This document shows positions 55,169 to 58,556 of a stretch of 64,000 nt of DNA, piece by piece. The stretch lies in the NCBI GenBank assembly GCA_913057205.1, contig CAJXNO010000013.1, forward strand, positions 1-64,000. Direction: 5' to 3'. Below the pieces are notes generated by a model, which saw only the letters and a list, made by a program, of their open reading frames with translations, made no database searches and was not told the DNA's origin. Within the stretch, counting starts at the first letter, position 1. Every line of letters starts with the position of its first letter. Position numbers and translations under genes: made by a program. This DNA is from an uncultured Flavobacteriales bacterium. Its GTDB lineage: Bacteria > Bacteroidota > Bacteroidia > Flavobacteriales_G > Salibacteraceae.

Positions 55169-56785
55169 ATGATCAGATCCATTGTTTTATTTCTTATCGG
55201 GTGTTTTGCGCTAACGGTTACAGCACAGGATCAAAAAGTGAAGAAGCCCCAAGCGGAAGAAGTCGTGACCTACTACGATAAAGACCAGAAGCATGTATAC
55301 TACCGAGGTTCCTTTTTGTTTGGTAAGAAGCATGGCGAGTGGACCTATTTCTACCGCAACGGCAATAAGATGGAGCAAAGCATGTACAACAATGGTCTCC
55401 TTAGCGGAGATGTGAAGTACTGGTATGATTCTGGACAACGCAAGGCGGAAGGTGCATTCAAGGTGGTTTATGAGAACGGTCTCTTGATCAGTGTTGCAGA
55501 TAGCAGCTATCGAGAATGGTATGCCAATGGAAACATGAAGGTGAAAGGAACGTACGACAATGATCTGCGAGTGGGTGATTGGTCCTATTGGTTTCCAGAA
55601 GGAGACCTGTGGAAGCAAATCCATTTCATCAATGGCTTTCCAAGGCCCTTCCATGGGTGGAACAAGGAGCGAGAGCAAACCCTGTTAGACGGAAATGGAA
55701 TCCTATACGATTACTATGAAACAGGTCCGCTCAAAGCAACGTTTGCCGTGAAAGACAGTACATACAATGGACTCAGTCAGAATTTTAGTCCAGAAGGTGT
55801 GCTCGTTTCAGAGGGAGACCTGAAAGGGCTGGATAAGCAAGGCTTGTGGAAGTTTAACTTTCCGGATGGCACTTCTTGGAAGCACATTGAATACGTAGAC
55901 GGCGAGCTGGATGGGTTAATAAAGAATTGGTTCAGAAACGGAACCCTGAGCCTAGAGGGTCAGCATGCCAGCGGCAGTAAGACGGGGCACTGGAAGTGGT
56001 TCGATGAGGAAGCTCGTATTTATCAAGAAGGCGATTTCAAGGAGGATCTTCAGCATGGAAAGTGGACCTATTACTTCGATAATGGCCAGATCGAGAGTAC
56101 CGGAAATTTCGAAAAGGATTTGCGTAAAGGTGCTTGGGAGATGTTCTATAAGAATGGGGCAAAGTGGAAGGATGGAAGCTACCTGAACGACAAGAAGCAC
56201 GGGCATTGGGTGACTTATTTTGAAGATGGTCAAATGCTTCAGGAGGGAGATTATGTGAACGGCAAAGAGAATGGTGTTTGGAAAGCCTGGTACCAAAACG
56301 GTCAGATGAAAGATGAGGGTGCTTACGCTGATGGTATCATGCATGGCAGCTGGACCGGATGGTATGATAATGGTGAGTTAAATTATAGAGGAACCCGAAA
56401 GCAAGGCAAGAAAGACGGTGAATGGACCTATGGCTTCAGAAATGGAAAGACACGTGAAGAAGGCAGCTACAACGATGGCATGAAAACAGGGAAGTGGGTT
56501 TTCTATTATGAAAGCGGTCAAATCGACTACTCCTGTTCCTATACCGATGGCGCAAAGGATGGGAAGTGTGTTTACTATTATCCGCATGGATCAAAGATGC
56601 GTGAAGAAAGCTATCGAATGGATCGATTGACAGGTAAGAGCAAAATGTGGGGTCCTACAGGTGAGCTTGTGAGCGTAAGGAGCTACAAAGACGGCGTTCC
56701 ACACGGTAAGGCCATCAACTACGATGAAAAAGGTCAGAAGCTAAATGAGATCATCTACAAAGAAGGGGTTCGAGTAGGACCGTAG
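55169..56785 (+). CDS. Exported MORN/YwqK-repeat protein
   Basis: A 538-residue exported protein with a signal peptide (~1-19, ending TVTAQ) followed by an almost unbroken series of ~23-residue MORN-2/YwqK repeats of the type GxWxxYYxNGQxxxEGxYxxGxxxG, covering residues ~40-535. Such repeats form elongated beta-hairpin rods that bind membranes or other proteins. In databases these are often called toxin-antitoxin YwqK antitoxins, but nothing here supports a toxin partner. Its role is probably structural. Confidence 0.88.
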   Translation: MIRSIVLFLIGCFALTVTAQDQKVKKPQAEEVVTYYDKDQKHVYYRGSFLFGKKHGEWTYFYRNGNKMEQSMYNNGLLSGDVKYWYDSGQRKAEGAFKVVYENGLLISVADSSYREWYANGNMKVKGTYDNDLRVGDWSYWFPEGDLWKQIHFINGFPRPFHGWNKEREQTLLDGNGILYDYYETGPLKATFAVKDSTYNGLSQNFSPEGVLVSEGDLKGLDKQGLWKFNFPDGTSWKHIEYVDGELDGLIKNWFRNGTLSLEGQHASGSKTGHWKWFDEEARIYQEGDFKEDLQHGKWTYYFDNGQIESTGNFEKDLRKGAWEMFYKNGAKWKDGSYLNDKKHGHWVTYFEDGQMLQEGDYVNGKENGVWKAWYQNGQMKDEGAYADGIMHGSWTGWYDNGELNYRGTRKQGKKDGEWTYGFRNGKTREEGSYNDGMKTGKWVFYYESGQIDYSCSYTDGAKDGKCVYYYPHGSKMREESYRMDRLTGKSKMWGPTGELVSVRSYKDGVPHGKAINYDEKGQKLNEIIYKEGVRVGP

Positions 56786-56800
56786 CATTCTGATTATTCA

Positions 56801-56808
56801 TATATTTG
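56801..56808 (+). promoter_or_regulatory. Promoter -7 element before rimP-nusA-infB
   Basis: TATATTTG is an exact TAnnTTTG match, 16 nt after the MORN gene stop. Transcription would start near 56812-56815, immediately before the hairpin and T-tract at 56824-56850. No clear -33 TTG is seen. Confidence 0.5.
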
Positions 56809-56823
56809 CCACGAATTAGAGAA

Positions 56824-56850
56824 GTGAGGGGAAGGCCCCTCATTTTTTTT
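56824..56850 (+). terminator. Hairpin plus T8 before rimP: MORN-gene terminator or attenuator
   Basis: TGAGGGG (56825-56831) pairs with CCCCTCA (56836-56842) around AAGG, followed directly by eight T (56843-56850), an ideal intrinsic terminator. It stands between the promoter -7 element (56801) and the rimP start (56864). If the promoter is used, it is a leader attenuator for rimP-nusA-infB; otherwise it simply ends the MORN transcript. Confidence 0.75.
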
Positions 56851-56863
56851 GGAGAAAATAAAG

Positions 56864-57310
56864 ATGATTTCGGAAGCGAAGATCGAACAGTTAGTGAACG
56901 AGAAACTCGAGGGAAGCTCTCGGTTTTTGGTGCGATTGTCTGTTAGTTCGTCCAACAAGATCATCGTAGAGATCGATGGATTGGAGGGGGTTACGATAGA
57001 TGATTGCGTAGCGGTAAGTCGGCATATTGAAGGAAACTTGGATCGTGAACAAGATGACTTTGAGTTGCAAGTTTCATCCCCAGGGGTGAGCAAGCCGCTG
57101 ATCGATAAGCGTCAGTACCCGAAGAACATCGGTCGAGAAGTAAAGCTGACCACGGTAGAAGGTGCAGAGATGAAAGGTGAGTTGCTCGAAGCAGGAGATC
57201 ACATCAAACTCAAGCTCCCTGCCTCAAAGAAGAAGAAGCTCCCCGAGCGAGAAGAGGTCTTGCAATGGGGTCAAGTAAAGGAAACTAAAGTTTTAATATC
57301 ATTCAAATAA
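56864..57310 (+). CDS. rimP: Ribosome maturation factor RimP
   Basis: A 148-residue 30S assembly factor (uS12 region). Typical segments are MISEAKIEQLVNEKL, VEIDGLEGVTIDDCVAVSRHIE and DFELQVSSPGVSKPLIDKRQYPKNIGREVKL. ATG 56864 follows a GGAG stretch by nine bases, one of the few Shine-Dalgarno-like sites in the window; an in-frame TTG 56849 would lie in the T-tract. First gene of the conserved rimP-nusA-infB order; nusA starts 10 nt later. Confidence 0.95.
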   Translation: MISEAKIEQLVNEKLEGSSRFLVRLSVSSSNKIIVEIDGLEGVTIDDCVAVSRHIEGNLDREQDDFELQVSSPGVSKPLIDKRQYPKNIGREVKLTTVEGAEMKGELLEAGDHIKLKLPASKKKKLPEREEVLQWGQVKETKVLISFK

Positions 57311-57320
57311 CAACGCGACC

Positions 57321-58556
57321 ATGAATGCTGATGAATTAATTGAGTCGTTTCAGGATTTTAAAGAGGTAAAGAACATCGATCGTGTTACCATGATGCACAT
57401 CCTAGAAGATGTGATCCGTAACATGATCATTAAAGAGTTCGGTGATGATGAGAATTTCGACATCATCATCAACCCAGACAAGGGTGACCTCGAGATTTGG
57501 CGGAACCGAATGATCGTTGAAGATGGTGAGGTGGAAGATGACTTGACGGAGATCGCTTACAGCGAAGCCATCAAGATTGAGCCTGACTTTGAAGTCGGTG
57601 AAGAGGCTTCTGAAGAATTGAAGATCGAAGAATTTGGACGTAGAGCTATCCTTTCTATGCGTCAGAACCTTGTTGGTAAGATTCAGGAGTTGGAGAAGGA
57701 TACCATCTACAAGAAATACAAGGATCGCGTTGGTGATATCATTACCGGTGAGGTATATCAGATTTGGAAGCGGGAAATCTTGGTCTTGGATGACGAGAGC
57801 AATGAATTGGTCTTGCCAAAATCAGAGCAGATTCCAACGGATTACTTCAAGAAAGGCGATACTGTTCGTGCGGTGGTGAGCAAGGTGGATATGCGCAATG
57901 CAAATCCGGTCATCATCCTTTCTCGTACATCACCAGCGTTCTTGGAGCGCTTGTTTGAGATGGAGGTTCCAGAGATCTTCGATGGTTTGATCACCATCAA
58001 GAAGATTGTTCGCGAGCCGGGAGAGCGTGCTAAGGTTGCAGTAGAGTCTTACGATGATCGCATCGATCCAGTAGGAGCTTGTGTAGGTATGAAGGGGTCG
58101 CGTATTCATGGCATCGTGCGTGAGTTGCGCAATGAGAACATCGACGTGATCAACTTCACCAATAATCCACAGCTGTTCATCCAGCGTTCTTTGAGTCCGG
58201 CTAAAATCACGACCATCAAGATCGACGAAGAAGAAGGAAGAGCAAACGTTTACTTGAAGCCAGACCAGGTATCCTTGGCCATCGGTAAGGGTGGACATAA
58301 CATCAAACTAGCTGGAAAGCTTACCGGGTTCGAGATCGATGTTTACCGAGAGTCAGAAGAAGACTACGAAGACGTAGACCTGGAAGAGTTTGCAGATGAG
58401 ATCGATCACTGGATCATCGACGAGTTGAAAGCAATTGGTTGCGATACGGCGAAAAGTGTCTTGGAACTCAGTTCAGAAGACCTCGTGAAACGTACCGACC
58501 TAGAGGAGGAAACCGTGAAGGAGATCCTCGAAATTCTAAAGGCAGAATTTGAATAA
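57321..58556 (+). CDS. nusA: Transcription termination/antitermination protein NusA
   Basis: RNA-polymerase-binding elongation factor of 411 residues. Order: N-terminal RNAP-binding domain (ELIESFQDFKEVKNIDRVTMMHILEDVIRNM), S1 domain (GDIITGEVYQIWKREILVL), KH domains (PVGACVGMKGSRIHGIVRELRNENIDVI and LAIGKGGHNIKLAGKLTG), and an acidic C-terminal helix-hairpin region (residues ~340-411). Between rimP and infB as in most bacteria. NusA favours intrinsic termination and pausing, so the upstream hairpin could allow autogenous control. Confidence 0.96.
   Translation: MNADELIESFQDFKEVKNIDRVTMMHILEDVIRNMIIKEFGDDENFDIIINPDKGDLEIWRNRMIVEDGEVEDDLTEIAYSEAIKIEPDFEVGEEASEELKIEEFGRRAILSMRQNLVGKIQELEKDTIYKKYKDRVGDIITGEVYQIWKREILVLDDESNELVLPKSEQIPTDYFKKGDTVRAVVSKVDMRNANPVIILSRTSPAFLERLFEMEVPEIFDGLITIKKIVREPGERAKVAVESYDDRIDPVGACVGMKGSRIHGIVRELRNENIDVINFTNNPQLFIQRSLSPAKITTIKIDEEEGRANVYLKPDQVSLAIGKGGHNIKLAGKLTGFEIDVYRESEEDYEDVDLEEFADEIDHWIIDELKAIGCDTAKSVLELSSEDLVKRTDLEEETVKEILEILKAEFE

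Follow-up and report, generated by a model that had tools for sequence, protein, structure and literature searches.

The window analyzed here, a stretch of 64,000 nucleotides from contig CAJXNO010000013.1 of an uncultured Flavobacteriales bacterium of the Salibacteraceae (GCA_913057205.1), carries a rimP-nusA-infB operon behind the gene of a MORN_2-repeat protein (table 1). The operon is essential and serves transcription and translation, and two of its products, NusA and IF2, are core factors. A sequence-only reading had proposed that a promoter, a terminator hairpin, a T8 tract, and the rimP start follow one another in this order between the MORN gene and rimP, and all four were located in the window sequence. 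In particular, TATATTTG matches the -7 box of the Bacteroidota sigma-A factor perfectly, and it is separated by 16 nt from a hairpin composed of TGAGGGG (56825-56831), AAGG (56832-56835), and CCCCTCA (56836-56842). The T8 tract directly behind the stem is followed by GGAGAAAATAAAG and, 13 nt behind the tract, by the rimP ATG at 56864.

Table 1. Genes and leader features at the rimP-nusA-infB locus of the window
Feature	Position	Strand	Basis
MORN_2-repeat protein gene, 538 aa; upstream neighbour, co-directional	55169..56785	+	
Bacteroidota sigma-A -7 box TATATTTG (TAnnTTTG)	56801..56808	+	sequence; consensus from PMC9723704
Predicted terminated leader RNA, ~38 nt	56813..56850	+	start inferred from box position; fold
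Terminator hairpin TGAGGGG-AAGG-CCCCTCA	56825..56842	+	sequence, fold, conservation
U tract, T8	56843..56850	+	sequence
rimP, 148 aa, RimP_N PF02576	56864..57310	+	
nusA, 411 aa, NusA_N + S1 + KH domains	57321..58556	+	
infB (IF2), 928 aa	58600..61386	+	

In Flavobacterium psychrophilum, the TAnnTTTG box of sigma-A promoters has been placed at -12 to -5 (PMC9723704), and by applying this rule to TATATTTG we inferred a transcription start near 56813. The terminated RNA predicted from that start has a minimum free energy of -18.9 kcal/mol (z -4.2), and its first Us can lengthen the hairpin stem to 14 pairs. No -33 element was recognisable in the window: there is no TTG near -33, where positions 56777-56783 read GGACCGT. 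A generic promoter and terminator scan of the window picked up neither the box nor the terminator, because it seeks promoters of the E. coli type and because the T tract is absorbed into the extended stem. In the predicted leader, the RNA ahead of the stem is A/G-rich and only about 12 nt long, and neither sequence nor fold revealed a C-rich stretch from which an antiterminator could form in this short leader. A leader peptide was ruled out, since nothing more than these ~12 nt would be available to encode it ahead of the hairpin.

The conservation of this arrangement was addressed by reading the rimP leaders of 57 relatives, 80 loci from deposited Bacteroidota contigs, and 80 loci from a phylum-wide draw, with one fixed rule for all leaders: a terminator-like hairpin, and TAnnTTTG 4-50 nt before it. 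In the class Bacteroidia, the hairpin lay directly 5' of rimP at 154 of 164 loci and was accompanied by the box in 146/164, with a median box-to-hairpin distance of 22.5 nt. Dinucleotide-shuffled leaders yielded a terminator in 46/2060 cases and a terminator with box in 1/2060, and control regions taken from upstream of nusA at these loci gave 2/132 and 0/132, respectively. In the other classes of the phylum, the hairpin was found in 39 of 42 leaders and the exact box in 14 of 42. Visual inspection still reveals a hairpin at most of the loci without a call, where the loop is longer, the U tract is weak, or the start is misassigned; misassigned start codons of distant rimP genes affected L053, L074, L188, L214, L219, and L249, which were inspected visually. 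Absence of the hairpin from relatives had been named in advance as an observation that would speak against an attenuator, and the hairpin is instead kept across the class and beyond.

Not all of these hairpins are followed by a good U tract. Five leaders (L018, L035, L043, L084, and L093) have the canonical rimP-leader hairpin with hardly any U tract, and there termination would need help, or the hairpin has another role. One such role, proposed for the element as a whole, would be that the hairpin and the U-rich stretch protect the 5' end of the mRNA or aid ribosome loading in bacteria without Shine-Dalgarno sites, termination being incidental. The position of the hairpin, at a median of 18 nt before the start codon, and its retention with a poor U tract in leaders such as L018, L035, and L043 are in keeping with this explanation; however, at least five of the eight bases after the stem are T in 154/164 Bacteroidia leaders, and the distance to the start codon spans 7 to 81 nt and is in many cases greater in the leaders of lineages lacking rimP, which makes it highly improbable.

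The hairpin could also be merely the terminator of the MORN gene standing beside an unrelated rimP promoter, as the sequence-only reading had itself considered. The MORN gene runs in the same direction, its end lies 40 nt ahead of the stem, and no other terminator occurs in between. However, at the 55 loci where crude ORF calling found the nearest upstream ORF to be divergent, the hairpin is kept in 49/55 and the hairpin with box in 46/55, and the same order of promoter and hairpin recurs in nearly all sampled families. Because the arrangement survives where the neighbour is divergent, the hairpin generally does not serve as the terminator of the upstream gene, and this alternative fails as a general account. 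Moreover, the promoter is situated 5' of the hairpin, so rimP transcripts that start at it must cross the hairpin. For these reasons, we regard a mere MORN terminator as very unlikely, and in the window the hairpin may additionally stop MORN transcripts. At locus L035, a separate terminator lies upstream, followed by the promoter and then the hairpin. The attenuator reading, in which a promoter stands upstream of an intrinsic terminator, thus gains support from the conservation, from the loci with divergent neighbours, and from the match to a published leader discussed below. Three loci without the box (L063, L070, and L107, on Bacteroidales contigs) carry a tRNA-Gln (TTG) gene shortly before the rimP hairpin on the same strand, which suggests that rimP may there be transcribed from the tRNA promoter, as it is from that of metY in E. 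coli.

Sequence preferences of the stem were then apparent. The 5' arm has more G than C in 149 of 154 Bacteroidia hairpins, with the reverse in 3, whereas a G-rich 5' arm was seen in only 17 of the 52 gene-end terminators from these loci; likewise, the core GGGRAC...GUYCCC occurs in 79/164 Bacteroidia leaders and in 0/52 of the gene-end controls. Outside Bacteroidia, the 5' arm was G-rich in 27 hairpins and C-rich in 11, and several other lineages have reversed arms (e.g., CGCCC...GGGCG in L230-L234 and L236); a G-rich 5' arm is thus strongly preferred but not universal. Paired changes in the stem amounted to 12 double-changed cells compared with 1.3 in shuffles, in a seed alignment of 32 well-aligned sequences picked by motif, a choice that favours structure; the count was restricted to these sequences because a MAFFT alignment of all hairpin types misplaced the stems. 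Further paired changes were seen in L119 (GAGCGGAC/GUCCGCUC), L123 (GAGGCACGC/GCGUGCCUC), and L011 (GAGGCC/GGCCUC). A covariance model of the hairpin by itself matched in 72 of 148 genomes, and because a good part of these matches were ordinary 3' terminators with no -7 box, we concluded that the hairpin alone is unspecific and that the combination of box and hairpin is specific. Two ordinary 3' terminators within a single genome (G000:C8:99474-99511, L170; G000:C46:12524-12561, L169) have a leader-like G-rich hairpin and no promoter box.

The attenuator is of a kind already known, here in its Bacteroidota form. The rimP-leader, described in other bacteria by Naville and Gautheret (2010), who considered NusA the most likely regulator (PMC2965389), is likewise a single hairpin directly upstream of rimP-nusA-infB with a G-rich 5' arm, a C-rich 3' arm, a U stretch, and no visible antiterminator. 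The arms TGAGGGG/CCCCTCA of the window fit its pattern GGGc...gCCC, although the inner c-g pair is absent. The Bacteroidota leader differs in having a sigma-A promoter immediately upstream, in the GGGRAC...GUYCCC core of about half of the Bacteroidia leaders, in the reversal of arm polarity in some lineages of the phylum, and in its persistence on nusA after the loss of rimP. Almost the same geometry as in the window is found in the leader of gbs0413-gbs0418 (rimP-nusA-infB) of Streptococcus agalactiae, with termination 31 nt after the start (PMC4448216), although in a different phylum and with a different promoter type. The metY-rimP-nusA-infB leader of E. coli resembles it in the GGGCUUUAGGCCC-U hairpin just before rimP and differs in its tandem hairpins and the upstream tRNA-fMet. 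In Bacillus subtilis, too, the nusA operon is reported to have an intrinsic terminator in its leader (Mondal 2016, as cited in PMC12288461); that leader is about 180 nt long (as reported in PMC2965389), compared with the ~38 nt predicted here.

Database models did not recover the element. The covariance model RF01770 (rimP; cut-off 47 bits) gave no match above the cut-off in any of 21 genomes (0/21) and none at the element in the window, its sub-cut-off matches being scattered over the genomes, and Rfam searches at gathering and relaxed thresholds returned no family for the element. In F. psychrophilum, a structured 5' element upstream of rimP was noted without an Rfam hit (PMC9723704), and the literature searched yielded no Bacteroides study of the nusA leader. 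An element of clear anatomy lies outside Rfam coverage in this phylum.

Which product the leader answers to, a question posed in 2010, can be approached through lineages lacking rimP, which are natural deletions that split rimP from nusA. No rimP precedes nusA in G055 and six other searched members of its family (L251, L260-L265), at 26 loci of the G166 family (L254, L266-L290), which belongs to another class, or in the single-cell genome AG-903-K14 (L082, L252), which is incomplete. PF02576 gave no rimP match above its cut-off in G055 or in any of the 30 G166-family genomes searched (30/30); rimP appears to have been lost from whole families that retain nusA. At the loci lacking rimP, the hairpin was found upstream of nusA in 34/34 and the hairpin with box in 31/34, compared with 15/680 and 2/680 in shuffles of these leaders; at L288 and L290 at least, another hairpin lies closer to nusA than the one that the script scored. 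Because the hairpin and box are kept on nusA where rimP is missing, the element goes with nusA-infB and not with rimP, which suggests that the switch controls nusA or the infB gene behind it. In nearly every readable locus infB lies behind nusA, and when the loci lacking rimP were re-examined with longer flanks, infB followed nusA in 9 of 11, with a partial match in a tenth; a separation of the two genes was not found among the readable loci. Since infB follows nusA nearly everywhere, synteny does not tell whether NusA or IF2 is the product under control.

We therefore propose, as the probable reading, that the element is a compact leader attenuator of rimP-nusA-infB at which partial termination is raised by NusA. 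RNA polymerase would start near 56813 at the sigma-A promoter and transcribe the G-rich/C-rich hairpin within about 30 nt and then eight U; a fraction of the polymerases would stop at 56843-56850 and release an RNA of ~38 nt, and the remainder would read on into rimP, nusA, and infB. NusA would stimulate stopping at the hairpin, so that abundant NusA lowers, and scarce NusA raises, NusA synthesis. NusA is probably the regulator in this organism, judging from the B. subtilis precedent and from the retention of the element before nusA in lineages lacking rimP: in B. subtilis, leader termination stimulated by NusA controls nusA (PMC12288461). NusA-dependent terminators of B. subtilis have been described with distal interruptions of the U tract (PMC8060035), which are typical of such terminators and not strictly required. 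Many relatives, such as the Chitinophagaceae, have interrupted U tracts; in the window, however, the T8 tract is uninterrupted and the stem is strong, so termination could be independent of NusA. The hairpin might instead be a leaky terminator with a fixed read-through fraction, or one that answers to NusG, IF2, RimP, or an RNA-binding protein reading the G arm, and not to NusA. Apart from the strong stem and perfect T8, this explanation draws on the leader-specific G-rich 5' arm, which could mean a sequence-reading factor. The NusA precedent in B. subtilis (PMC12288461) weighs against it, as does the association of the element with nusA in lineages lacking rimP for RimP in particular, and the reversed polarity of other lineages for a strictly sequence-reading factor; we consider it unlikely.

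The NusA attenuator may, more tentatively, be generalized. A NusA-sensing module of promoter and hairpin might extend over the phylum and stay with nusA whichever gene comes first, with NusA, or NusA-bound polymerase, mostly reading the G-rich 5' arm by sequence and this preference being relaxed or reversed in some lineages; we regard this as possible, though rather doubtful. The lineages with reversed polarity make it possible to test whether the sequence of the G-rich arm is read or whether only the hairpin matters.

As far as the literature was searched, the phylum-wide distribution with a Bacteroidota promoter, the retention on nusA in lineages lacking rimP, and the measured polarity of the arms, including its reversals, are new, as is the occurrence of tRNA-Gln just upstream in three of the loci without the box. 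A leader attenuator described for Firmicutes and Gammaproteobacteria is nearly universal in Bacteroidota, whose promoters are of a different kind. Several variants were observed among the loci. At L048 and L125, a spacer of a few hundred nucleotides separates rimP and nusA, compared with tight spacing elsewhere, and no second attenuator was seen in these spacers. In Arenibacter sp. 6A1 (L108), the usual hairpin upstream of rimP is swapped for a strong, different one, CGCCTGGTTTTAA...TTAAAACCAGGCG, without a T tract. The Chitinophagaceae and similar loci (L086, L087, L095, and L097-L100) share a uniform variant, GAAGGGAACG...CGUUCCCUUC, followed by a U tract interrupted by C.
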